64,000 nucleotides of DNA, taken from NCBI RefSeq assembly GCF_003583365.1, contig NZ_QXED01000003.1:682001-746000 (forward strand), in the 5' to 3' direction. Under the pieces are notes generated by a model. That model made no database searches and had not been told where the DNA came from. It saw only the letters and a program-made list of their open reading frames with translations. This stretch comes from Fibrisoma montanum (GTDB lineage Bacteria > Bacteroidota > Bacteroidia > Cytophagales > Spirosomataceae). The position numbers were made by a program, and so were the translations under genes. Positions 11,978-25,692 of the stretch are shown in pieces. Position 1 is the stretch's first letter. Every line of letters starts with the position of its first letter.

Positions 11978-13000
11978 TTACGTTGACGGCACGATCTTGT
12001 CGGGCACTACGTGGTATGCCATGGCTTCGTCGATCATCTCCAACGACCCGATGTACAGCGGACTCCGCTGGTGCAGGGTCCGCAGGGGTACGTCCAGAAT
12101 CCGCATCCGGCCGTCGGTAGCAGCGCCCCCGGCCTGTTCAATGATGAACGCCAGCGGGTAACATTCATATAGCATCCGCAGCTTGCCGCTGGGCGCTTTG
12201 ACCATCGGGGGGTACAGGTAAATGCCTCCTTTGAACAGATTCCGGTGAAAGTCGGCCACCAGCGACCCAATGTAGCGGGCCGTGTACCGCTGGTTCCGGC
12301 AGGCATTCAGGTAGCTTTGCACCGGTTTCGGGAAGTCGATGAAGTTACCTTCGTTGCACGAGTACATCGTACCGCTGCGGGGCGTTGTGATGCGCGGATG
12401 CGAGAGAAAAAACTCACCCAGCGACTGCTCGTAGGTAAACCCATTTACGCCCGAGCCGGTGGTGTACACCAGCATGGTCGACGTACCGTATAGCACGTAA
12501 CCGGCCGCGATCTGCGTGTTGCCGCCCTGCATGAAGTCTTCCTGGACGGCCAGCGAATGCACCGGACTCACCCGCCGATAAATAGAGAAAATCGTCCCGA
12601 TCGATACGTTCACGTCAATGTTCGACGAGCCGTCGAGCGGATCGAGCGCCACTACGTATTTCCCATGATTGTTGCCGGTGAAGATGATCCCGTCTTCTTC
12701 TTCCGACACGATGGCGGCCACCTCGCCCCCGTTCCGCAGCGCCCGCAGAAACCGCACGTGTGCGCTTACGTCGAGTCGCTGCTGCCGTTCACCGTGGAGG
12801 TTCTCAGTGCCGAACGCCCCGGTAATGTCGGCCAACCCCGCCCGGTTGACCTCACGGTTCACAATTTTGGCGGCCAGCGCAATGTCGCGCAGGAGTTGCG
12901 ACAGTTCGCCGGTAGCTTGCTTGAAATGATCCTGGCTTCGTTTGATAAAGCGGTCGAGCGTCACCCCGACGGGGGTGGCAATGGAATCTTCGGCTAGCAT
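11978..13000 (-). CDS. fbp: Fructose-1,6-bisphosphatase, class I
   Basis: Hydrolyses fructose 1,6-bisphosphate to fructose 6-phosphate, the committed late step of gluconeogenesis, in the cytosol. 340 residues from the ATG at 13000, the normal class I length. The frame is open for 58 codons further upstream, but that would run into pckA and lacks family similarity. Signatures: EEEDGIIF (metal site), [20 protein letters not shown] (substrate/metal loop), [20 protein letters not shown] and the C-terminal [17 protein letters not shown] followed by RSPLYIGS. It starts 8 nt after the pckA stop, so the two genes form one operon, and shares the putative operator upstream of pckA. Confidence 0.97.
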
Positions 13001-13008
13001 AACATGGA

Positions 13009-14640
13009 TTAATAAGCGTGAACGACTTCCCCTGATTGAACGACATGAGTATACGAATACTTGGCTGCATTCGCCTGAAAAGCCTTTAAAAGGTCTTGAG
13101 CCTGAGTCTGATATGCTATGGAATCGGACCACGACAGCTCCGGCTGGAGCAACTCGTCCGGTACGCCGGGGCAATGTACCGGAATCTGCACCCCAAACAC
13201 GTCGTGGGTTACAAACGGTACGTCGGCCAGGTCGCCGTTCAGCACCGCCCGCAGCAACGCCCGGGTGTAGCGAAGGGCAATGCGGCTGCCGACTCCGTAC
13301 GCCCCCCCGACCCAGCCGGTGTTCACCAGCCAGACCGTCGCCCTGCTGCTACGGAGTTTGTCGCCCAGCAACTGCGCGTACCGCTGCGGAGCCAGCGGCA
13401 GAAAAGCGGCCCCAAAACAGGCCGAGAACGTAGCAACCGGCTCAGTCACCCCCATTTCCGTTCCAGCCAGCTTGGCCGTGTAGCCGGACAGGAAGTAAAA
13501 CATGGCCTGTTCGGGGGTCAGTTTCGACAAGGGCGGCAACACCCCGAACGCATCGGCCGACAGAAAGAAAACATTGCGGGGCGGAGCCGCTACCGAGGGC
13601 GTCAGGGCGTTGGCGATGTAGGTCAGTGGGTAAGCCGTGCGGGTGTTTTCAGTCACCGAACAATCGGCATAGTCGACCTCCTGGCAATTGGGCCGGAACC
13701 GGGTGTTTTCGAGAATGGTACCAAACCGGATGGCGCTATAAATCTGCGGTTCCTGCTCGGCGCTCAGATTGATAACTTTGGCGTAGCAGCCGCCTTCAAA
13801 GTTGAACACCTCATCGTCGGACCAGCCGTGTTCGTCGTCGCCGATAAGCCGGCGGTCGGGGTCGGCCGACAGGGTCGTTTTTCCCGTTCCCGACAAGCCA
13901 AAAAACAGGGCTGTATCCGGCTCGCCATCGGGTTGCTGATGGCCCACGTTTGCCGAACAATGCATGGGCAAAACGCCGTGCTCCACGGGCAGGATGAAGT
14001 TGAGCACCGTAAAGATGCCTTTCTTGATTTCGCCCGCGTAGCCGGTTCCGCCAATCAGGATCATCTTCCGGCTGAAATCAACAATGGTGAAGTTTTCCTG
14101 CCGCGTACCGTCCACTTCCGGATCGGCTTTGAACTCCGGGACGCTCAGGACCGTCCAGCTGGGTTCAAAATGGGGCAGTTCCTCGTCCGTCGGGCGAATG
14201 AACAGATTGTAGCAAAACAGGTTCTGCCAGGCTTTTGTCGTCACGACCGCGATCGGCATCCGGTAGGCAGCGGCTGCTCCGGCATAGGCGTAACGGACAA
14301 ACGTTTCCTTGCCTTCCAGAAACCGCAGCATACGGGCGTGCAGCCGGCCAAACGCTTCCGCATCGAACGGACGGTTGATGTCCCCCCAATCTACCTGATG
14401 CTCCGTAGAGGCATCGTGCACGATGAATTTATCCTTGGGTGATCGACCCGTGAACTGACCCGTATCGCACATGAACGCGCCGGTACTGGTCAGTACCCCC
14501 TCCTGCCGGGCCAGGGCTAGTTCGACCAGCCGCGTAGGCTGCAGGTGAAGAAACACGGTTCGGCAGGTCGATACCCCCAGTTGCCGGATGGGCGCAGCGG
14601 GTACGTTGTCGGAGGACCGGATGATGGTTACCTGAAACAT
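13009..14640 (-). CDS. pckA: Phosphoenolpyruvate carboxykinase (ATP)
   Basis: Converts oxaloacetate and ATP to phosphoenolpyruvate, the entry step of gluconeogenesis. 543 residues from ATG 14640; 22 extra in-frame codons upstream overlap the promoter region and are not needed. Motifs: [12 protein letters not shown] near the N-terminus, the P-loop [16 protein letters not shown], the metal-binding [11 protein letters not shown], and [11 protein letters not shown]. Length and P-loop identify the ATP-dependent type. First gene of the pckA-fbp operon, divergent from the XRE/ScfR-like regulator at 14780. A TACATTTG -7 element and a palindromic operator lie immediately upstream. Confidence 0.97.
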
Positions 14641-14675
14641 ATACGAAAAGCTTGTTGATGAAGTGTATAGGGTGG

Positions 14676-14707
14676 CAAATGTATTTTTGCGAATTGAATT
14701 AAACAAG
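14676..14707 (-). promoter_or_regulatory. Candidate pckA-fbp promoter (Bacteroidota type)
   Basis: Read on the minus strand, TACATTTG (14676-14683) matches the Bacteroidota -7 consensus TAnnTTTG, and CTTG (14704-14707) supplies a -33 TTG with a 20-nt spacer. Transcription would start about 29 nt before the ATG at 14640. The -33 element overlaps the central palindrome of the operator. Confidence 0.55.
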
Positions 14708-14740
14708 CGAATATTCGCTAACTTATTTTAAATTCGCTAA
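14689..14740. promoter_or_regulatory. Multi-site operator between pckA and its divergent regulator
   Basis: A perfect 14-bp palindrome AGCGAATATTCGCT (14706-14719) is flanked by half-sites GCGAATT (14689-14695) and AATTCGCTAA (14731-14740). The two GCGAAT words are 18 nt apart and the two ATTCGCTAA words 19 nt apart, so all sites lie on similar helix faces. The sites overlap both divergent candidate promoters, as expected for autoregulation plus control of pckA-fbp. The regulator at 14780 is the obvious candidate binder; this is inferred from position. Confidence 0.65.
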
Positions 14741-14762
14741 TGCTGTATGTTTCGTAGCTTTG
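14733..14762 (+). promoter_or_regulatory. Candidate promoter of the XRE/ScfR-like regulator
   Basis: TAGCTTTG at 14755-14762 matches TAnnTTTG; an 18-nt spacer separates it from TTCG (14733-14736), a one-base variant of the TTTG -33 element. The predicted start is about 10 nt before the ATG at 14780, giving a very short leader. The -33 element lies inside the third operator half-site. Confidence 0.45.
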
Positions 14763-14779
14763 TCATTATTTGACACGAC

Positions 14780-16297
14780 ATGATTTCGGCAACAGAGCGC
14801 GTTCGGGTAATTTTTGGGTTAAAACTGAAGCAGCTACGTCAGGACAAAGGCTTTCAGTTGTACGAATTGGCTGATCGGGCCGGTTTGTCCCCATCGTACC
14901 TGAATGAGATTGAGAAAGGTAAGAAATACCCCAAGTCGGAGAAGATATTTGCTCTGGCCGCTGCCCTCGGCACCGACTACGATACGTTGGTTTCGGTTAA
15001 GCTCAGCAAACAGCTCGAACCCATCGCCGAACTGCTCAACTCCAATATTCTGAGTGAGTTACCATTGAATCTGTTCGGCATTGAACCCGCCGACCTGCTC
15101 GATATCCTGTCGCAGGCCCCGTCGCGGGTCAGCGCCTTCATCAGCACCATTATCGAGATCAGCCGCAACTACGGCATGAACGTCGAGCAGTTTTACTTTT
15201 CGGCGCTGCGGTCGTATCAGGAACTCCACAACAACTATTTCGAAGACATTGAAACCGTAGCGGCCGATTTTATCCGGAACCACGCGGGTAACGAACCCCT
15301 GACGGAACCGCCGTTTGATGAGGGCCGACTCCGGCGGATTCTGGAAGAAGAGTTTTCGTACCGGATCGACGAGTTTTCGGAAGTCGATTACCCCGCCCTG
15401 GCGGGCATTCGCTCGCTGGTGCTGCCGGGCTCCCCGACGGTGCTGCTGATAAACCGGTCTCTGGAGCCCAGCCAGCGGGCTTTTACCTACGGCCGCGAGG
15501 TTGGGTTTCGGGTGATGCAGCTAACCAACCGCCCGCTCATCTCGTCGCAGACCGAAGCCGAGTCGTTCGAGCAGGTCCTGAACAACTACAAAGCGACGTA
15601 TTTCGCCGTAGCGATTCTGGTGCCGCGACCATTGCTGATTACGGGTCTGGCGAGCTTCTTTGCCCGACCGACCTGGGAGCCGCAGGCTTTACTGGACCTG
15701 ATGAACCGCTTTGATGCGACACCCGAGGTGTTCATGCACCGCATCAGCAACGTCATGCCAAGCCACTTCGGCATTGATCAGCTTTTCTTTCTGCGTTTCG
15801 ATAATGCCGTGACGGACAACCGGTTCGTGCTGGCCAAAGAACTTCATCTGGCCAAGCTCCACAACCCCCACGGCACCATCAACGAACACTATTGCCACCG
15901 CTGGGTATCCCTCACGCTGCTACAGGATCTGGCCCGGCAGCAACAGGCCGGTAGCTGGGACGGGCAGCCGCTCTGCGGGGGGCAGATTTCGGAGTATATG
16001 GACACCAGCAACCGCTACCTGATCCTGACGGTGGCGAAACCCTCCCCCCCGCGGGCCGGCCTGAACAGCAGCGTTACGCTCGGGTTCGCCATCGACGACC
16101 GGCTGCGGGCCCTGGTACGCTTCCTCGACGATCCACAGCTGGTCCGCCGGGCCGTGAACGAAACCTGCGAACGCTGCGGTGCGCTCGACTGTCTGGAGCG
16201 GGCTGCCCCGCCTGTTGTCTGGAAAAAGCGCCGGCGCAACGAGCAGATCAAACAGGAGCTCGCTATGCTGCGGGCCGGGCTGCCGGCCAAGGACTAG
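14780..16297 (+). CDS. XRE-family regulator of the short-chain fatty-acyl (ScfR/RamB) type
   Basis: 505 residues. Residues about 9-65 are a Cro/CI helix-turn-helix (LKQLRQDKGFQLYELADRAGLSPSYLNEIEKGKK). The middle (about 170-330) resembles the IrrE/ImmA-like domain but has no HExxH: the expected place reads TYGREVGFRVM, so peptidase activity is not expected. The C-terminus (about 340-490) fits the DUF2083/ScfR domain, with a Cys-rich end CERCGALDCLERAAPP. Known relatives (RamB, PccR, MccR) respond to acyl-CoA and control acetate or propionate metabolism. Its position opposite pckA-fbp with a shared palindromic operator suggests it ties gluconeogenesis to C2/C3 supply. Ligand and sign of control are not shown by sequence. 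Confidence 0.85.
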   Translation: MISATERVRVIFGLKLKQLRQDKGFQLYELADRAGLSPSYLNEIEKGKKYPKSEKIFALAAALGTDYDTLVSVKLSKQLEPIAELLNSNILSELPLNLFGIEPADLLDILSQAPSRVSAFISTIIEISRNYGMNVEQFYFSALRSYQELHNNYFEDIETVAADFIRNHAGNEPLTEPPFDEGRLRRILEEEFSYRIDEFSEVDYPALAGIRSLVLPGSPTVLLINRSLEPSQRAFTYGREVGFRVMQLTNRPLISSQTEAESFEQVLNNYKATYFAVAILVPRPLLITGLASFFARPTWEPQALLDLMNRFDATPEVFMHRISNVMPSHFGIDQLFFLRFDNAVTDNRFVLAKELHLAKLHNPHGTINEHYCHRWVSLTLLQDLARQQQAGSWDGQPLCGGQISEYMDTSNRYLILTVAKPSPPRAGLNSSVTLGFAIDDRLRALVRFLDDPQLVRRAVNETCERCGALDCLERAAPPVVWKKRRRNEQIKQELAMLRAGLPAKD

Positions 16298-16416: not shown

Positions 16417-19400
16417 ATGGAATCGCGTTCCCACCTTTTACCTATACTCAGCGTTTGGCTGGCGGTCCAGCTTTCAATCGGCTGCCTGGCCCAGGTGCAA
16501 CCCATTAATTTACCGGCTCCGGAGTTCATCACCGACCGGCAGGGGCTTCCCCAGGCATTTGTTCCGGCCATTGTGCAGGATCGACAGGGATTCATCTGGA
16601 TGGCTACGCGCGACGGGCTGGCCCGCTACGACGGGAGTCGCTTCAAGGTGTTCCAGCCTGACCCGGACGGGCGACCTTCTCTCTCCTCAACGGATGTTGC
16701 TCAACTACAACTGGATCATCACGGGAAGCTCTGGATGACCAACGAACGGGGTGATCTGGACGTATTCGATCCCAGAACCGAACAGTTTATTAATTTGTCC
16801 CAACAGCCGATTTTCAAACGGCTCAAACTAAATCCTGGCCAGTTTAACCGCTTCTGCGTCGATCAACATGATCGCCTGTGGATCACTGCGGACACCGCTG
16901 GGCTCGTTTGCCTGAACCTATCATCCAACCGGATAAAGCAATACCGTCATCAGCCGAACCAGCCTTATTCAATCAGTCATAATTCCATCTTTGGGATTCT
17001 GGAAGCGCCAAATGGAGCGATCTGGATCTTGACTAAGGCAGGGTTAGATTGTCTGGACGAACGATCGCGTACCATCCGCCATTATTTAAAGGAACTGGAT
17101 ACAGCCACTGACTATAAAGGCCTTTGGGTGCGCCCGTCCGGGGATGTGCTGGTAATGACCAGTCAATGGCTGTACGTAGTCCACCCGGCTTCCGGCCAGG
17201 TTCGTCAATACGCCCTTCCCGTGCCTTCGCCGGTTCAATCAGCTGACTTTGCCCATTTCGCTGAGGCTCGGGCGGGTACTCTTTACATTGCCTGGAGTAC
17301 ATACATCTACGCGTTCAACGACAAACAAGGCATCCGTCTGCTCGATTCAAGCCCCAGACAAACTCGAAATACTTACCAGTCGACGTTCATTGATCAGTCG
17401 GAGGTGCTCTGGCTGGGAACGGCAGGAGCAGGCGTACGTAAATACAATCTGCGAACGCTCCCCTTCCAGACGGCTCGTTACCAAACGGAATTCCTGCCCG
17501 ATTTATTTAGCCAGGGTTGGTTAAATCTCCCGGCTCAACGGTTACCGGCTCCATTAGCCGGACTGACCAGCTATAATTTTCGGTATGCCTTCGATGGTCA
17601 GGGACGGTTGTGGTACAATGCCGGCAGTTCGGATTGCTACCGGGTTGATTTTCAGACAGGACAAACCGAGCCGGTTCCATTTCCCATCCGGTTTCGAAGT
17701 GCATTCGTCGGCAAATCGCCCTGTCCAATGGCTACCGATCCGGATGGACGCGTCTGGGCGGTTTATGAGTCAGCCGCTTTCTACTACGACTCGGAGCGGA
17801 CCCGATGGATTCAGTTCCCTTTTCCAATTCCGTGTCCGACCGGATGTTTGCAGCAGATGCTGGTTGTCGATGAGCAGGCCCTGTGGATAGCTACGTCTAT
17901 CGGAGGCTTATTCCGTATCAATCGCACCAATGGCCAGGTACAGGTCTTCTCTAACGTTCGAAATAATCCAGCCACCCTCAGCAGCAATGCATTGCTCTGC
18001 CTGGCTGAGGACCCCGACAGTACTCACCTGCTCTGGATCGGTACGTTCGGGAGCGGGCTCTGTCGCTTCGACAAGCGATCCGGAACCAGCAAACGGTTCT
18101 CCATAGCCGATGGGTTGCCCAACAACGTGATCTATTCGGCCATTCCTGACCACCGCGGTGACCTCTGGATGGGCACGAACAAAGGGATCGCCCGGTTCAA
18201 CCGCCGAACGTTTACCATCCAGACGTATACCCTGGAAGACGGAATTCTGGCGAACGAATTCAATCGATTTCATTTCCTCCATTTCCACGGGCGTGGGCGC
18301 GCAGCCGATCGGATTCTGATGGGTGGGCTGGAAGGCATTACGGCTTTTTACCCCCATCAGATAAAGCGGGATTCGTTTCAGCCCAGGGTCGAAATAACCT
18401 CACTGTACGTCAACAACAAACCGGTTGTGCCGGAACCAGATTCACCGCTGGGCAATTTACCCATTCAGGCCGTTGAGGCATTAACACTCCCGTACGACCA
18501 GAATTTTCTGACGATTGATTTTGCGGCTATGCAATTCAACAAGCCCGCCAAGAATAAATATCGCTACCAACTGGTGGGTCTGGCCCCGGCTTGGGTTGAA
18601 AGTCGTCGGGCGGAAGTAGTATTTACGGGCTTACAACCGGGAACGTATACCCTGCGGCTGAATGCGTCCAACGTATCGGGGCAGTGGAGCCCACACATTC
18701 GAACGCTGACGATTCGTATCCAACCACCCTGGTGGGCTACCTGGTGGGCCTATGCCATCTATGCTCTGCTGATCACAGGACTGGCTTACGGGCTGTTTCG
18801 CAATTACATCAACCGGCTCAACCTGCGCCAGTCGATGCAGTTGAAGGAACACGAGACCGAGCAACTCCGGGACCTGAACGCGATGAAAACCCGCTTCTTT
18901 GCCAACATTACCCACGAGTTCCGGACACCCCTGACGCTCATCCTGGGGCCTACTGAACAACTTATGGACGAAGCCCTGGAGCCCCGGATTCGCCGTCGGT
19001 TGCGTACCATCGAGCAGAACGCGCACCAGCTGCTGCGGCTCATCAATCAATTGCTGGACCTGTCCCGGCTGGAAGCGAGCGTGATGCCGGTTCAGCCCTC
19101 CCGCGGCAATCTGGCCGACTGTATCACCCATTGGCTGGCACCGCTCAGCGAGCAGGCCACCGCGCAGGGCATCACGCTTTCGTTTCGCGCCGAGGTCAGC
19201 GGCTCCTACTGGTTTGATGTCGAGAAATTCGAGCGCATCGTGTACAACCTGACGGCCAATGCCCTGAAGTTTACGCCTGTCGGCACCGTTACGGTCTCGG
19301 TCGTTCCGTTGCCCGAAGGCATTCAGCTTACCGTTGCCGACACCGGTATTGGCATAGCCGCTCAACACCTGCCCCATATCTTCGACCGCTTTTATCAGGT

Positions 19401-20424
19401 GGCATCGGAACCGGCCGGGTCTGCTGCCATCAGCCGTAGTAAACAGGCCCAGGCCCCTCAGCCGCTGGGTGCGGGTATTGGGCTGGCGCTGGTGAATGAA
19501 CTGGTCCAACTGCAGCAGGGCACGATTACGGTCGATAGTGTCCCGGGTCAGGGTACCACCTTCGTCGTGACGCTGCCGTATGCCAAAGCCGACGGAGCGG
19601 AAAACCCAGCGGTAATTCAGCCGATAGAAGCCGACAGCCAGCCGACCGGGTCAGACGCAACTCCGGAAGCGCGTATCCTGCTGGTTGAAGACAACGATGA
19701 ATTGGCTCAATTCATCACCCAAAACCTGCCTGATTTCTATCGCATCGACCGGGCGATAAATGGGCTGGACGGGCTCCGGCTAGCCCTCAAACACGTACCG
19801 GATCTAATCATTTCCGACATCATGATGCCGGGCATGGATGGGCTCACACTCTGTGGACAACTTAAAATCGACCTCCGTACCAGCCACATCCCTGTGATGC
19901 TGTTAACGGCCAAAGTAACGCGGGAAGACCGTCTTGAAGGGCTAACCCAGGGCGCCGACGAGTACCTGACCAAACCCTTCCAGGTGGCGGAACTACGCCT
20001 GAGAGTGCGCAACTTGCTGGAGCAGAGCCGTCGGCAGCGCGACTGGGTTCGTCAGCAGTTAATCGGCGCCGAACCCGTGCGGGAACATCCCCCCGTGGCT
20101 GACCCGTTCCTGACTCGCCTGTATGCCCTGCTGGAAGCCAATCTGAGTAACCCGCGGCTGAGCGTTGACCAGTTGACGGATGAACTGGCCATGAGCCGTA
20201 CCAACCTCCACCGCAAAGTCAAAGCCCTGACGGGTTTCTCGGCGAACGAAGTAGTCCGGCACTACCGGCTTAAAGCCGCCACGACGCTGCTCCGCCAGGG
20301 TCTCAACAGCGCCCAGACGGCCGACCGCGTTGGCTTCGAAAGTCCCTCCTACTTCGCCAAATGCTTCCGTGAGGTCTACGGAGTAACCCCGGCCGAATTT
20401 GTTCGTAAGCAGGGAATCAACTAA
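16417..20424 (+). CDS. Hybrid two-component system sensor/regulator (HTCS)
   Basis: One-protein signalling system, 1335 residues. Order: signal peptide (1-26), periplasmic two-component propeller repeats (about 40-640; LWMTNERGDLDVFDP, LWIGTFGSGLCRFD, DLWMGTNKGIARFN), Y_Y_Y domain (about 690-765), membrane segment (about 770-792), HisKA with His833 in THEFRTP, HATPase (NALKFTP, then DTGIGIA), receiver with phospho-acceptor Asp1134 in ISDIMMPGMDG, and a C-terminal AraC helix-turn-helix (about 1246-1335). HTCS proteins sense glycan fragments in the periplasm and switch on a neighbouring utilisation locus; here no glycan genes adjoin it. A small ABM-like gene follows after 167 nt. Nothing is missing from the catalytic residues. 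Confidence 0.95.
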   Translation: MESRSHLLPILSVWLAVQLSIGCLAQVQPINLPAPEFITDRQGLPQAFVPAIVQDRQGFIWMATRDGLARYDGSRFKVFQPDPDGRPSLSSTDVAQLQLDHHGKLWMTNERGDLDVFDPRTEQFINLSQQPIFKRLKLNPGQFNRFCVDQHDRLWITADTAGLVCLNLSSNRIKQYRHQPNQPYSISHNSIFGILEAPNGAIWILTKAGLDCLDERSRTIRHYLKELDTATDYKGLWVRPSGDVLVMTSQWLYVVHPASGQVRQYALPVPSPVQSADFAHFAEARAGTLYIAWSTYIYAFNDKQGIRLLDSSPRQTRNTYQSTFIDQSEVLWLGTAGAGVRKYNLRTLPFQTARYQTEFLPDLFSQGWLNLPAQRLPAPLAGLTSYNFRYAFDGQGRLWYNAGSSDCYRVDFQTGQTEPVPFPIRFRSAFVGKSPCPMATDPDGRVWAVYESAAFYYDSERTRWIQFPFPIPCPTGCLQQMLVVDEQALWIATSIGGLFRINRTNGQVQVFSNVRNNPATLSSNALLCLAEDPDSTHLLWIGTFGSGLCRFDKRSGTSKRFSIADGLPNNVIYSAIPDHRGDLWMGTNKGIARFNRRTFTIQTYTLEDGILANEFNRFHFLHFHGRGRAADRILMGGLEGITAFYPHQIKRDSFQPRVEITSLYVNNKPVVPEPDSPLGNLPIQAVEALTLPYDQNFLTIDFAAMQFNKPAKNKYRYQLVGLAPAWVESRRAEVVFTGLQPGTYTLRLNASNVSGQWSPHIRTLTIRIQPPWWATWWAYAIYALLITGLAYGLFRNYINRLNLRQSMQLKEHETEQLRDLNAMKTRFFANITHEFRTPLTLILGPTEQLMDEALEPRIRRRLRTIEQNAHQLLRLINQLLDLSRLEASVMPVQPSRGNLADCITHWLAPLSEQATAQGITLSFRAEVSGSYWFDVEKFERIVYNLTANALKFTPVGTVTVSVVPLPEGIQLTVADTGIGIAAQHLPHIFDRFYQVASEPAGSAAISRSKQAQAPQPLGAGIGLALVNELVQLQQGTITVDSVPGQGTTFVVTLPYAKADGAENPAVIQPIEADSQPTGSDATPEARILLVEDNDELAQFITQNLPDFYRIDRAINGLDGLRLALKHVPDLIISDIMMPGMDGLTLCGQLKIDLRTSHIPVMLLTAKVTREDRLEGLTQGADEYLTKPFQVAELRLRVRNLLEQSRRQRDWVRQQLIGAEPVREHPPVADPFLTRLYALLEANLSNPRLSVDQLTDELAMSRTNLHRKVKALTGFSANEVVRHYRLKAATTLLRQGLNSAQTADRVGFESPSYFAKCFREVYGVTPAEFVRKQGIN

Positions 20425-20591: not shown

Positions 20592-20888
20592 ATGTTTGCA
20601 CGTATCATGGAAGGGCAACTGGCCGCTGATGCAGCCGAAGAAGCCATCAACTACGTCCGGCAGTCGCTGGCTCCGGCCCTGCGACGCCAGCCCGGCTTTC
20701 TCAACGGACGCCTGCTGCGCGACCCCGGCACCCAAGCCTGCCTGCTGGTGCTGGTCTGGGAGTCGGAAGCTGACCGGGCGCAAGCCGACGACAATAGTTT
20801 CCTGCAGACGCTGCTGGCTCATCTGAGCCTCTACTTTGTCGACCGACCCATGAGCCAGAGCTATGAACTCCAGGTCCAGATTGTCTGA
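20592..20888 (+). CDS. Small ABM-like (dimeric alpha/beta-barrel) protein
   Basis: 98 residues from ATG 20592 (the in-frame TTG at 20580 is less likely). The pattern MFARIMEGQLAADAAEEAIN, then RRQPGFLNGRLLRDP, then ACLLVLVWESEADRAQA fits the antibiotic biosynthesis monooxygenase-like dimeric alpha/beta barrel. It is a paralogue of the 95-residue protein at 29958-30245: both share the M-x-ARI start, the AEEA helix, LxPALxxxxGF and VWESE. Both also directly follow a large signalling gene. Function unknown; catalytic residues cannot be assigned in this loose family. Confidence 0.75.
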   Translation: MFARIMEGQLAADAAEEAINYVRQSLAPALRRQPGFLNGRLLRDPGTQACLLVLVWESEADRAQADDNSFLQTLLAHLSLYFVDRPMSQSYELQVQIV

Positions 20889-20961
20889 TTCGCTGGTAGC
20901 TAATGCGGCTAATGGCTGGACTGTTTTACGCCTATTTGTTCACTTTTTTCACAAACCTCGT

Positions 20962-23900
20962 ATGAATCCTCCATCTCTACGGCACACGCTGACGCACTAC
21001 GGCACACGAAGTCGCTATCGATGTACTACGCTCGACTCACATGCGGCCTGGCCCGGCCCATCTCAACTAGTCAGGCGGTTTTTAGCCTTGCGAAACGACC
21101 TACTACTCACCGGCTTGTTTTGTTTGCTGTGGGGGGTCGGTCAAGGGCAGACCATCCGCTACGTGAAGCCCTCGGCCAGTGGCACGGGTACCGGCTCCTC
21201 GTGGGCCAACGCCAGTGGTGATTTGCAGGCCATGATCAACGCCAGTCAGGCGGGCGATCAGGTCTGGGTGGCAGCCGGCTTATACAAGCCCACCACGACT
21301 ACGGACCGCAACGTGAGCTTTAGCATCCCCAGTGGGGTAGCCCTCTACGGGGGCTTTTTGGGCACCGAGAGCAGCGTGGGCCAACGCCCGCTGATTAATC
21401 CGGTTAATGGGCAGCCCTCGAGCACGACCCTGTCAGGCAACATCGGCGACGCGGCCACCAACGCTGACAACACCTTCAGTGTGGTGCGCTTGCGCAACGC
21501 CAGCGCCCAGACGCGGCTGGATGGGCTGGTCATCACCGGGGGCAACGCCAACGGAAGTTTTCCCAACGAACGGGGCGGAGGCATTCGCAATGACGGTAGT
21601 GGGAGTGGGGGTAGCAGCAGTCCGGTCTTGAACAACATCAGCTTTGTGGGCAACTTAGCGACTAGAAATGGCGAGGGAGCTGCTGGATCCGGCGGGGCCC
21701 TCTATAACGATGGGAGCAATGGAGGCAGCAGCAATCCGGTCTTGACCAACGTCAGTTTTGTGGACAATTCGGCGAATGGAATCGGCGGGGCCATCTTCAA
21801 CAACAGTCGCGCTGGCAGCAGCCGTCTGGTCTTGACCAACGTCAGCTTCGTGGGCAACTCAGCGACGGCTGGAAATGGCGGGGCCATCTACAACGATGGA
21901 CGACAAGGCAGCAGCAGACCGGTCTTGACTAACGTCAGTTTCGTGGGCAACTCGGCGTCTTCAAACGGCGGGGCTATCTTTAGCGATGGAGGCTCCGGCA
22001 GCAGTTTCCAACTGACCAACGTCAGCTTTCAGGTCAACACCGCCACGCGGGGCGGGGCCCTGTACCTCGATGCGACATCCCTGTCGCTGACCAACGGCAT
22101 TATCTTCAACAATGGTCTCGACTATGCCATCACCAATTTGGGTGGTAGTAGTACGATCACGGCTCGATACTGCCTCTTCGAGTCGGGGGTGAGCGGCTAC
22201 ACCGATGGGGGCAACAACCGCACCACCACCACCAACCCCTTCGTCTCGACCACCTCTACGCAGTTAGCGGCTGGCTCGCTGGCCATTGACGCGGGCAACT
22301 CCTCGGACCCTGGCCTGACCGGCATCACCACCGACCTGGCCGGTAACAACCGCATCGTGGGCTGCCAGGTGGATCTGGGCCCTTATGAGTTCCAGACCAC
22401 CACCAGCCAGCCCCTGGCCATCACCCAGCCGCCCGCCAGCAGCTCCGCGGTAGCCACCGGGGCCAACGTCCGCGTACCGGTGGGCCTCAATGTCACGGCC
22501 ACCAGCCTGCAGTGGGTTAACCAGGCGGGCCTGGTCAGTGGGCAGACCTCGGCCACGCTCACGCTCAATGGAGTCACCACCAGCCAGAGTGGTAGCTATT
22601 CGCTGGTGGCTACCGGCCCCTGCAACAGTGTCACCACGACCGCCTTTAGCTTGAGCGTCAGTCCGCCCTGTAACCCGGTAGTGTACGTTACCCAGGCGGG
22701 GGCGGGCCTTCAGAACGGGACCAGCTGGACCAACGCCCTGTCGGGCACGGCCCTCCAGGGAGCGCTGGCGACGGCCTGTGGCAGTACGACCTTTCTGGTG
22801 GGGGCCGGCCTTTACACGCCCACCACAGGTACCGACCGCAACGTGAGCTTTACCATCCCCAGCGGGGTACAACTCTACGGGGGCTTTGTGGGCACCGAGA
22901 GCAGCGTGGGCCAACGCCCGCTGATTAATCCGGTTAATGGGCAGCCCTCGAGCACGACCCTGTCGGGCAACATCGGCGACGCGGCCACCAACGCTGACAA
23001 CACCTTCAGTGTGGTGCGCTTGCGCAACGCCAGCGCCCAGACGCGCCTGGATGGGTTGGTCATCAGTGGAGGCAACGCCAATGGCAGCTTTCCCAATGAT
23101 GAAGGTGGCGGCATTCTTAATGATGGCAGTGGCGGGGGGAGCAGCAGCAACCCCATGCTGGTCAACCTGAGTTTAGTGGCTAACCGGGCGGAGAATGGGG
23201 GCGGCCTGTACAACGACGGGGGCAATCAAGGGAACAGCAGTCCGGTACTGACCAACGTCAGTTTCGAGGGTAATTCCGCTTTGTCTGGAGGAGGCCTACT
23301 GAACCGAGGAGCGGTGCAAGGCAACAGCAGTCCGGTCTTGACCAACGTCAGCTTCGTGGGTAACTCAGCGAGCGCACTCGGCGGGGCCATCTTTAACGAG
23401 GGGACTCAGGGTTCGAGCAGTCCGGTGCTGACCAACGTCAGCTTTGTGGCCAACTCGGCAGCAGGGAACGGCGGGGCCATCTTTAACAATGGGACTTCGG
23501 GCAGCAGCAGTCCGGTGCTGACCAACGTCAGCTTTCAGGCCAATACCGCCCAGCAAGGCCGGGCCGTGTTCCTAGTGGAGGCCTCCCTGTCGCTGACCAA
23601 CAGCATCATCGTCAACAATGGTCTCGACAATGCCATCAACAGCAATGATAGTGGTCTCATCACGGCCCGCTTCTGCCTCTTCGAGGCTGGCCTGACCGGC
23701 TACACCAGCGATCCCTCCAACCTGACGACCACCACCAACCCCTTCGTCTCGACCACCACCACCCAGCTCAACGCCTGTTCGGAGGCCATCGACGCGGGCG
23801 ATAACGCAGTGGAGGCCGGCTCGACCGATCTGGCAGCCAACCCCCGGCGGGTGCGCACCATCGACATCGGCGCCTATGAGTTCCAGGATGACCCCGCTAC

Positions 23901-25692
23901 GCTGGCCATCACCCAGCAGCCGACCAGCGCCAATGCCGTCTGTGAGGGCCAATCCGTCTCGGTCTCAGTAGTCGTTAGTGGGGCCAGTCCTACCTACCAG
24001 TGGTACAAAGACGGCACCACGCTGGCCAACCAAACGGCCGCCACGCTCAGCCTGCCCAGCGTGACCACGGCCAACGCGGGTAGGTACTCCGTAGTGGTCA
24101 CCGGCACCTGCAACAGTTTGACCTCTACGGCCTTCAGCCTAACGGTGAACCCCTCAGCCAGCGTCAGCATCAGCCCCTCGACCACCGCCATCTGTGCCGG
24201 CCAGACCGCTACGTTTACCGCCAGCGGGGCCGATACGTACCGGTGGAGTACGGGCGAAACCACGGCCGCCATCAGTGTGTCAGCCTCCGGCACCTACGCC
24301 CTGACGGCCACCACCAGCGCCGGGTGCGCAGCGACCGCTGCCGCCGGCCTAACCGTCAACGCCCGGCCCCAGGCCAGCCTGACCAGCAACAGCCCGCTGA
24401 GCTGCACCCAGACCAGCGTCAGCCTCTCGGCCGGACCAGCCGCCCAGGACGGCCAGCCGTTTACCTACGTCTTCTCCGGACCCGGCCTCAGCCAGAGCGG
24501 CACCGCCAACACGGCCTCCGTCAGCCAGCCCGGCACCTACGCCCTGACCGTCACCAGTGCCGCCGGCTGCTCAGCCTCGGCCACTACCACCGTCACCGGC
24601 GCTACGGCCCTCACCCTCACCCAGCCCCCCACCAGCCAGACCGCCTGCGTGGGCACCTCCGTCACCTTTGCCGTCCAGGCCCAGGGACCCCAGGGGCTGA
24701 CCTACGCCTGGTTCAAGAACAGCGCCGACCCCAGCCAGCCCGTGCTGGCTACTACGCCCACCTACGAGGTCAACGTCAACGAAGGTGGCAAAGCCGGCCG
24801 CTACCTTGTCCGCGTCTCGGCTCCGGGCTGCGCCAGCCAGCAGACCGAAGCCCGCCTGAGCGTCAACCAGCGGCCAGTGGCTCCCCCACCCACCTCCACC
24901 CGGCGACAGCTCTGCCCTAGCCCCACGCCCGTTGAGCTGAGCCAGTACGTCAGCCGCACCAACGCCAGCTACCAGCTCCGCTACAGTACCGAGCCAGGTC
25001 AGGCCCTGAACGGCTCCCAGGTGGTGCTCAACCAGCCCGGCAGCTACGCCTACCAGGTCACCCAGCTCGATCCGGCCACCGGCTGTGAGAGTGTGCCTAC
25101 CCGCTTCACCCTGACGGTCAACGCCACCACCCAGCTGGTGAGTCTCCCCCCCGCCCAGAGCGTGTGCTCGGGCAGCGACCTAACGCTGACGGTGCAGGCC
25201 AGTGTCACCAGCCTCAGGTACGAGTGGTTCCGGGGCAGCATCAGCAACCTCAACAAGCTGGCCGACAACCCCAGCCAGCAGACCGGCACGACCACGGCCA
25301 GCCTGAAGCTGATCCGGGTGAGCCAGTCGGAGAGCTACTTTGTGCGCATCAGTGGGGAGTGTGGGGTGATCAGTTCGGAGGCCATCCCGGTAACGGTGCA
25401 GGCCTGTGGAGCGCGGCAGGGCGTAGGCGAAGCCACCAGGGGGTTGCAAGTGGTGGTGCTGGGCAACCCCGTAGCGGGTCAGACGGTGGAGGTAGAGGTA
25501 CGCGGGGCGCAGGCCCAGCCCCTGCGTCTGCAGCTAATAGACCAGCGGGGTCAACTGGTGGATGAACTGGCCCGGCCGGCGGCTCAGGCCGTGGAGTCGG
25601 TGCGGTTGCGGCTGGGTCAGGTGGCCGGTCTGTACCTGCTGCGGGTGGCTACGCCTACCCAACGGCAGACCGTCAAGGTAGTAAAACACTAA
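20962..25692 (+). CDS. Giant secreted beta-helix/Ig-like protein with T9SS sorting domain
   Basis: 1576 residues from ATG 20962; the frame is open 33 codons further upstream, overlapping the previous gene. A hydrophobic export signal (LLLTGLFCLLWGVGQG) sits unusually far in, after about 50 basic residues. Two homologous modules follow, each starting YVxxxGxGxxxGxSWxNA, then WVAAGLYKPT or similar, and containing repeats of about 25 residues built on PVLTNVSFVGNSA-GGAIFN, which fit a right-handed parallel beta-helix. The second half has several Ig-like domains (YQWYKDGTTL, AGRYSVVVTG). The end (NPVAGQTVEVEV...GLYLLRVATPT...VKVVKH) is a type IX secretion sorting domain, so the protein is exported to the cell surface. 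Probable adhesin or surface-binding protein. Confidence 0.85.
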   Translation: MNPPSLRHTLTHYGTRSRYRCTTLDSHAAWPGPSQLVRRFLALRNDLLLTGLFCLLWGVGQGQTIRYVKPSASGTGTGSSWANASGDLQAMINASQAGDQVWVAAGLYKPTTTTDRNVSFSIPSGVALYGGFLGTESSVGQRPLINPVNGQPSSTTLSGNIGDAATNADNTFSVVRLRNASAQTRLDGLVITGGNANGSFPNERGGGIRNDGSGSGGSSSPVLNNISFVGNLATRNGEGAAGSGGALYNDGSNGGSSNPVLTNVSFVDNSANGIGGAIFNNSRAGSSRLVLTNVSFVGNSATAGNGGAIYNDGRQGSSRPVLTNVSFVGNSASSNGGAIFSDGGSGSSFQLTNVSFQVNTATRGGALYLDATSLSLTNGIIFNNGLDYAITNLGGSSTITARYCLFESGVSGYTDGGNNRTTTTNPFVSTTSTQLAAGSLAIDAGNSSDPGLTGITTDLAGNNRIVGCQVDLGPYEFQTTTSQPLAITQPPASSSAVATGANVRVPVGLNVTATSLQWVNQAGLVSGQTSATLTLNGVTTSQSGSYSLVATGPCNSVTTTAFSLSVSPPCNPVVYVTQAGAGLQNGTSWTNALSGTALQGALATACGSTTFLVGAGLYTPTTGTDRNVSFTIPSGVQLYGGFVGTESSVGQRPLINPVNGQPSSTTLSGNIGDAATNADNTFSVVRLRNASAQTRLDGLVISGGNANGSFPNDEGGGILNDGSGGGSSSNPMLVNLSLVANRAENGGGLYNDGGNQGNSSPVLTNVSFEGNSALSGGGLLNRGAVQGNSSPVLTNVSFVGNSASALGGAIFNEGTQGSSSPVLTNVSFVANSAAGNGGAIFNNGTSGSSSPVLTNVSFQANTAQQGRAVFLVEASLSLTNSIIVNNGLDNAINSNDSGLITARFCLFEAGLTGYTSDPSNLTTTTNPFVSTTTTQLNACSEAIDAGDNAVEAGSTDLAANPRRVRTIDIGAYEFQDDPATLAITQQPTSANAVCEGQSVSVSVVVSGASPTYQWYKDGTTLANQTAATLSLPSVTTANAGRYSVVVTGTCNSLTSTAFSLTVNPSASVSISPSTTAICAGQTATFTASGADTYRWSTGETTAAISVSASGTYALTATTSAGCAATAAAGLTVNARPQASLTSNSPLSCTQTSVSLSAGPAAQDGQPFTYVFSGPGLSQSGTANTASVSQPGTYALTVTSAAGCSASATTTVTGATALTLTQPPTSQTACVGTSVTFAVQAQGPQGLTYAWFKNSADPSQPVLATTPTYEVNVNEGGKAGRYLVRVSAPGCASQQTEARLSVNQRPVAPPPTSTRRQLCPSPTPVELSQYVSRTNASYQLRYSTEPGQALNGSQVVLNQPGSYAYQVTQLDPATGCESVPTRFTLTVNATTQLVSLPPAQSVCSGSDLTLTVQASVTSLRYEWFRGSISNLNKLADNPSQQTGTTTASLKLIRVSQSESYFVRISGECGVISSEAIPVTVQACGARQGVGEATRGLQVVVLGNPVAGQTVEVEVRGAQAQPLRLQLIDQRGQLVDELARPAAQAVESVRLRLGQVAGLYLLRVATPTQRQTVKVVKH
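21303..21530 (+). repeat. Near-identical long direct repeat, copy 1
   Basis: This segment matches 22833-23060 at a fixed offset of 1530 nt (510 codons). From 21361 to 21517 I find one mismatch, clearly more conserved than the protein requires, so the copies arose recently or are kept alike by gene conversion. It encodes the start of the first beta-helix module of the giant secreted protein. Confidence 0.9.
21600..22040 (+). repeat. Tandem beta-helix repeats, module 1
   Basis: Five or so degenerate units of about 65-80 nt, each carrying a form of CCGGTCTTGACCAACGTCAG followed by a gap-filling Gly/Ser/Asn stretch and GGCGGGGCCATCT. Unit lengths differ by multiples of three, so the reading frame is kept. 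The encoded rungs read LTNVSFVGNSA...GGAIFN. Confidence 0.8.
22833..23060 (+). repeat. Near-identical long direct repeat, copy 2
   Basis: Second copy of the segment at 21303-21530. Differences cluster at the two ends; the middle is almost invariant. The two copies lie in the same frame, so recombination between them would delete exactly 510 codons and leave an open frame. Confidence 0.9.
23140..23560 (+). repeat. Tandem beta-helix repeats, module 2
   Basis: A second run of the same rung repeat as at 21600-22040, again with conserved CCGGTxxTGACCAACGTCAG cores and variable spacers. The two arrays differ in unit number and spacer sequence. Confidence 0.8.

Follow-up and report, generated by a model that had tools for sequence, protein, structure and literature searches.

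Introduction

The closest described counterparts of the regulator considered here are MtPrpR and MtRamB (PDB 6CYY, 6CYJ, 6CZ6, 6D2S), whose published binding sites read TTTGC(A/G)AA in the excerpts of PMC6765138 on which we draw. In the same excerpts, MtPrpR holds a [4Fe4S] cluster through Cys363 and a C-X2-C-X4-C motif, ligands that are marks of the IsaR clade, and MtRamB is proposed to bind succinyl-CoA. A second counterpart is Paracoccus denitrificans RamB (class 2, ScfR family), for which excerpts of PMC10370305 describe a gene divergent from those of malate synthase and isocitrate lyase, a DNA site of two boxes, CoA-ester binding and a reported [4Fe4S] cluster. Its authors hypothesise repression by a promoter-bound tetramer, and activation by a dimer that carries a CoA ester and remains on the DNA (PMC10370305).

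In Corynebacterium glutamicum, pck is part of the acetate stimulon, as given in the consulted portion of PMC4448153. The RamB protein of that organism (class 1) is a regulator of acetate metabolism, and the NCBIfam model built on RamB matches our regulator weakly (see below). RamB has also reportedly been found at the pck promoter of C. glutamicum, and control of PEP carboxykinase (PEPCK) by a RamB-type protein may therefore not be wholly new.

Here we analyse positions 14676-14762 of a 64,000-nucleotide stretch of the Fibrisoma montanum genome, referred to as the window. The array itself, its conservation, the promoter geometry, the neighbours in relatives, the predicted fold, the cysteine pattern and the lack of detectable shunt genes can all be read from sequence. 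Together they make it probable that this segment is the shared operator-promoter of an ScfR/IsaR-type regulator, predicted to bind there, and of pckA-fbp, and that it was inherited from a glyoxylate-shunt cluster. We found no description of such a regulator-operator circuit among the open-licence papers listed by our searches, some of them consulted as excerpts, and the term 'Bacteroid' is absent from PMC10370305 and PMC6765138.

Results

Architecture of the divergent promoter region

The window carries pckA, encoding ATP-dependent PEP carboxykinase (13009..14640, minus strand; PF01293), and fbp, encoding class 1 fructose-1,6-bisphosphatase (11978..13000, minus strand; PF00316, PF18913). With 8 nt between the stop of pckA and the start of fbp, the two genes are likely co-transcribed. 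Divergent from them lies the regulator gene (14780..16297, plus strand), an ScfR/IsaR-type gene for a protein with an XRE helix-turn-helix and an IrrE/M78-like sensor region. A first-pass annotation of this DNA had described a 139-nt gap between pckA-fbp and a divergent XRE/ScfR-like regulator, which is borne out by the ATG-to-ATG distance (14641-14779, AT-rich) and by the Pfam domains. Downstream of the regulator gene are a hybrid two-component sensor-regulator (16417-20424; Reg_prop, HisKA, response regulator and AraC-type HTH) and a protein of 1609 aa that carries Ig-like and Chlamydia-PMP-type repeats (20863-25692).

Within the gap, the predicted core operator is a perfect 14-bp palindrome, AGCGAATATTCGCT, at 14706..14719. 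It is flanked by a left half-site, TTTGCGAA (14686..14693, plus strand), and a right half-site, TTCGCTAA (14733..14740, minus strand). The repeated word is GCGAA at 14689-14693 (left half-site) and 14707-14711, and TTCGC at 14714-14718 and 14733-14737 (right half-site). The left flank is 18 nt from its inner half-site and the right flank 19 nt, so every coordinate and spacing reported for the palindrome and its two flanking half-sites was reproduced. For Paracoccus RamB two boxes with an 18-bp spacer are reported (excerpts of PMC10370305); compared by layout, the palindrome with half-sites at 18-19 nt differs from that site.

The annotation had read the GCGAA word as a new DNA specificity, which is overstated: the left half-site is exactly TTTGCGAA, a site of the TTTGC(A/G)AA type published for MtPrpR and MtRamB (excerpts of PMC6765138). 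It is the sole match of this type in the operator (14686-14693), and the palindrome halves, AAGCGAA/TTAGCGAA, are unlike it. The apparent novelty relative to the MtPrpR and MtRamB sites looks to be the arrangement of the half-sites.

Bacteroidota promoters carry a -7 motif TAnnTTTG and a TTTG near -33, as described in the portions of PMC7366714 and PMC2483708 that we used. The predicted -7 box of the pckA-fbp promoter, TACATTTG (14676..14683, minus strand), lies 29 nt from the palindrome centre, and the predicted -7 box of the regulator promoter, TAGCTTTG (14755..14762, plus strand), also matches TAnnTTTG; a third match in the gap is TATTTTTG at 14682 on the plus strand. The palindrome had been said to overlap the -33 of both divergent promoters. 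On the pckA side this stands for a single base: the -33-like TTG (14706-14704) is 20 nt from the -7 box and shares one position with the palindrome, and the left half-site falls between these two promoter elements. On the regulator side, however, the sole -33 candidate is a weak TTCG (14733-14736), which coincides with the right (third) half-site and not with the palindrome.

Conservation of the array across the family

A palindrome produced by chance or base composition, with no function, has one point in its favour: a perfect 14-bp palindrome is not rare in itself, appearing in 104 of the 5000 dinucleotide-shuffled versions of the gap and six times in the 64-kb window. The four-half-site layout, by contrast, was found in 0/5000 such shuffles, even with any 5-mer as the repeated word. 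In the only other genome of the genus in our set (G001), whose regulator is 84% identical, the -7 boxes, half-sites and extended palindrome agree with the window at 52/53 bases, against 41/86 in the rest of the gap, and the right half-site is kept at 8/8 bases. The pattern GCGAA-N13-GCGAANNTTCGC has 43 matches in 33 of 200 family genomes and its reversed control has one. We therefore reject the chance reading, whose probability we regard as negligible.

The 43 matches represent 41 separate places, since the pairs in G045 and G112 are each one palindrome read both ways, and all 43 keep the left half-site spacing of the window. The count is conservative: palindromes flanked by GCGAT or GCGGA, of the Fibrella, Spirosoma and Rudanella types (L046, L049, L053, L068, L145, L147, L202), go unmatched by this pattern. 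The palindrome has thus not been lost from relatives with the same gene pair, the outcome that the annotation had named beforehand as counting against it.

We also scored the consensus AGCGAANNTTCGCT upstream of the regulator gene. Loci entered this count if they had at least 150 nt of upstream sequence, and their 132 regions including repeats (the window recurs six further times, as L001, L005, L009, L095, L096 and L170) reduced to 99 distinct contexts. The best match has no mismatch in 34 of these, one in 14, two in 4, three in 5, and four or five in 42. Against a shuffle mean of about 4 mismatches this distribution is bimodal, with a site of 0-1 mismatch within 450 nt of the regulator in 48/99 contexts. 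Many close homologues, those at Dyadobacter, Runella and Emticicia loci and the paralogue described below, have no such site upstream.

In the 7.79-Mb F. montanum genome, AGCGAATATTCGCT has one exact copy, at 14706-14719. The array pattern with up to two mismatches gave 17 matches against 18 for the reversed control, and no further exact array was found, so only the mismatch-free array in the window stands out. Other mismatch-free places of the palindrome form GCGAANNTTCGCT include C11:789494, within a long open frame, and C34:12743. The latter is AGCGAAATTTCGCT (G000:C34:12743-12756; L097 1500-1513); it has no flanking half-sites and stands 4 nt ahead of the probable ATG of ilvD, the gene for dihydroxy-acid dehydratase (PF00920). 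By a rough reckoning 0.5 mismatch-free palindromes are expected by chance in 7.79 Mb, and the ilvD-side palindrome is possibly a second target in this genome, or chance. Its presence means that pckA-fbp may not be the sole target.

Genes adjoining the array in relatives

All 43 arrays were inspected in their loci, and 32 of them adjoin the regulator, malate synthase, isocitrate lyase, pckA or fbp. In many relatives the genes facing the regulator are those of malate synthase and isocitrate lyase (assigned by clustering, with Pfam run on representatives), the same divergent arrangement as for Paracoccus RamB (excerpts of PMC10370305). The aceB-aceA pair is followed by pckA and fbp in an Arcicella MAG (L015), Pseudarcicella (L016) and a Cytophagales MAG (L019); in Flectobacillus (L018) pckA was seen after malate synthase-isocitrate lyase, and in Arcicella aurantiaca (L014) pckA and fbp do not fall within the stretch examined. 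G026 (L198) has a regulator 66% identical to that of the window, a divergent malate synthase-isocitrate lyase-pckA cluster and the identical 14-bp palindrome. pckA-fbp faces the regulator directly in Fibrella (L046), two Spirosoma species (L053, L061), a Spirosoma MAG (L068) and the window. In Rudanella (L049) an inserted gene separates the regulator from pckA and the palindrome stays with pckA; the operator there (L049 4460-4507) is an inverted repeat, perfect over 48 bp, whose four half-sites are spaced 18 nt apart.

In a chosen part of the 200 genomes, which is not a full tally, malate synthase faces the regulator in 12 genomes, with isocitrate lyase present in 12/12 (a nearly circular result); pckA faces it in 9, with full isocitrate lyase in 0/9 (G023 has a weak partial match). 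The proposal of a circuit acting on PEPCK and FBPase holds in so far as pckA-fbp adjoin the array, but the array is not pckA-specific and elsewhere faces malate synthase-isocitrate lyase. Overall, the conservation in sequence supports a predicted tie between the array, an ScfR/IsaR acyl-CoA-type regulator and pckA-fbp.

The other 11 arrays lie away from the expected genes: four near a POT transporter, five before an SCP2 gene and two in a convergent gap. In genus g2 (L175, L204-L207) the array precedes an SCP2-type gene of 93 aa (Pfam was run on three), and the box of this second array is at 29 nt in both loci checked (L175, L204). An acyl/sterol carrier protein may thus belong to the regulon in g2, a membership that would fit acyl-CoA or lipid metabolism. 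Beside the POT-family (PTR2) genes (L158/L212, L162/L213, L164, L165) a TAnnTTTG box stands at 38 nt and points away from the transporter, which casts doubt on the transporter as a target and hence on a peptide signal; the box points towards no recognised gene, or, in L213, towards a gene of the dienelactone-hydrolase family. In genus g22 (L178/L214, L179/L215) the array sits between the 3' ends of rhodanese and pseudouridine synthase genes. One would not expect a promoter at such a place, which possibly holds a small gene or RNA that went unseen.

Family assignment of the regulator

The regulator has an N-terminal XRE-type helix-turn-helix (PF01381, residues 16-69, E 5.1e-14) and an IrrE/M78-like region (PF06114, residues 220-323, E 4.8e-7). 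In an alignment of 30 regulator sequences the zinc motif HExxH occurs in 0/30, and C372 together with C463-X2-C466-X4-C471 is invariant in 30/30. This is the MtPrpR pattern of a C-X2-C-X4-C motif joined by a single cysteine in the GAF domain (C447-C455 and C363 in MtPrpR, C463-C471 and C372 in the regulator; excerpts of PMC6765138), the pairing of C372 with C363 being made by order and spacing rather than from a printed alignment. The four cysteines are putative [4Fe4S] ligands.

An AlphaFold2 model built from the 30-sequence alignment (mean pLDDT 82.8, pTM 0.72) was compared with folds in the PDB, where the six top-ranking matches were all MtPrpR chains (E 3e-12 to 5e-9), with TM scores of 0.65-0.70 by target length and 0.40-0.45 by query length and an rmsd of 5.4-6.0. 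A HMMER sequence search of solved structures returned no MtPrpR match, giving HTH matches and one stray weak match. The likeness to MtPrpR and MtRamB comprises the fold, an IrrE-like region without HExxH and the TTTGC(A/G)AA half-site; unlike them in other respects, the regulator shares 17-20% identity with MtPrpR over the aligned fold, and the MtPrpR targets are prpDC and icl1 (excerpts of PMC6765138). The NCBIfam RamB equivalog model NF038139 scores 34.4 bits over residues 13-285, far below its cut-off of 700, so we place the protein in the ScfR/IsaR family and not with RamB proper. A RamB by function would have aceA/aceB targets in its own genome, and neither gene was found here. Judged from its sequence and modelled fold, the regulator belongs to the ScfR/IsaR acyl-CoA regulators already described and is a putative CoA-thioester/[4Fe4S] binder. 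The earlier label of an acyl-CoA-type regulator was sound as a family assignment: the MtPrpR fold, cysteine pattern, HTH and IrrE-like region all place it in this family.

The same genome encodes a paralogue (G000:C37:62191-63672; L010 10177-11676) that is 50% identical and has a very similar HTH. This paralogue, or an unrelated regulator, could be what binds the operator, leaving the neighbouring gene a bystander, and some arrays do lie far from a regulator gene: in G061 (array C1:3879728, regulator C1:3648344), in G109 and in G093 (array C10:88242, regulator on C2). The array stands before fbp and/or pckA in six g27-type loci (L159-L161, L166, L167, L203) and in G025 (L177), with no regulator match within the stretch examined; in the G025 genome as a whole (66% complete) no regulator was found. 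Against a different binding factor, about a third of the distinct contexts of this regulator type (34/99) have a mismatch-free site no more than 450 nt upstream, whereas upstream of the paralogue there is no operator of the array type, the best score of 4 mismatches being at shuffle level. We consider binding by another factor improbable and prefer the adjoining regulator as the ligand of the array.

The paralogue adjoins a WYL-domain regulator and an acyl-CoA dehydrogenase, and Dyadobacter-type loci have acyl-CoA dehydrogenase neighbours of a similar kind. Upstream of it (L010 9787-10176) are a tRNA-Ser gene and then degenerate repeats of the tRNA 3' end, which may be the trace of an integrating element.

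Promoter phase and the sign of regulation

The distance between array and promoter was counted in 49 distinct arrays (those with 0-1 mismatch, plus L061 with 2). A target-side TAnnTTTG begins at precisely 29 nt from the centre of the palindrome in 21/49, many of which come from closely related species; it starts at 26-28 nt in 6/49 and at 24 nt in 1/49. No target-side box at 24-29 nt was present in the other 21/49, the Pontibacter arrays among them. The regulator-side distance varies between loci. In the fbp/pckA arrays of g27-type genomes the box is at 38 nt (37 in L177), about one helical turn further. A fixed promoter phase fits either polymerase contact or steric blocking, and does not distinguish activation from repression.

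The array could serve a simple repressor that acts on the regulator and pckA by covering both promoters, without activating either and without a CoA ligand; iron sensed through the cluster is one example of the signal in that case. The operator does overlap the pckA promoter core and the weak regulator -33, and iron sensing through the cluster was proposed by the MtPrpR authors (excerpts of PMC6765138). Since the array covers the core of the pckA promoter, repression alone is just as possible as a dual mode. Linkage to C2-assimilation genes and SCP2 in relatives, however, fits a metabolite signal, and it is a CoA-binding protein that gave the best fold matches. As a complete account we rate the ligand-free repressor unlikely, and retain a CoA thioester as the candidate signal.

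Probable loss of the glyoxylate shunt

The F. montanum genome (99.98% complete) has no match to isocitrate lyase (PF00463) or malate synthase (PF01274) at E <= 0.001. Acetyl-CoA could therefore not yield net PEP via a glyoxylate shunt, and with no PF00463 or PF01274 match found we reject gluconeogenesis driven by acetyl-CoA through that route. This makes the C2 half of the signal originally suggested, a C2/C3 acyl-CoA level, unlikely. Methylmalonyl-CoA mutase is present in the genome, and a C3/C4 signal (propionyl-, methylmalonyl- or succinyl-CoA) is for that reason more plausible.

To place these loci in a history, we built a midpoint-rooted FastTree phylogeny of 91 regulators from hand-chosen loci (the window, L006, L014-L093 where matched, L198-L202, L168, L141, L143 and L144). 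Most pckA-only loci fall in one clade, beside and around loci with malate synthase, isocitrate lyase, pckA and fbp; L061 falls outside it. The genus of the window joins first L199 (G023, pckA-fbp; support 0.979) and then L198 (G026, with aceBA and pckA; 0.992). On the assumption that aceBA is lost but never regained, about three losses are needed in that clade, where some nodes are weak (0.888, 0.545). From its sequence relationships, the array looks like an ancestral glyoxylate-shunt switch, a regulator facing aceB-aceA-pckA-fbp, that was left on gluconeogenesis after aceBA was lost.

Discussion

We infer binding, the sign of regulation, the ligand and the cluster in the mechanism that we propose for this region. 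The regulator would occupy the array as dimers or as a tetramer. The palindrome, which lies immediately upstream of the pckA -33 region, would take one dimer, and other subunits would reach the half-site in the -33/-7 spacer and the half-site over the regulator's own -33. By analogy with Paracoccus RamB, the spacer half-site would be a repressing contact and the palindrome an activating one, and a CoA thioester together with the [4Fe4S] cluster would set the state of the regulator. The tetramer/dimer model of Paracoccus RamB suits an operator with several half-sites; that protein differs in targeting the glyoxylate cycle, which was not found in the F. montanum genome, where the target would be pckA-fbp (excerpts of PMC10370305). 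In its fullest form, the proposal is a shunt-derived CoA-thioester/Fe-S switch that would set entry into gluconeogenesis in shunt-less Cytophagales, in which a tetramer on the four half-sites would block pckA-fbp and a dimer carrying a C3/C4 acyl-CoA would activate from the palindrome, at a fixed position beside the -33 region. We offer this version tentatively, as a possibility more than an expectation.

If it is true, independent losses of aceBA each left the same switch on pckA. Apart from this fullest version, the locus looks like a case of a regulator and operator surviving the pathway that they once served, and it supplies central carbon metabolism in Bacteroidota with a regulator, an operator and a regulon that can be tested.
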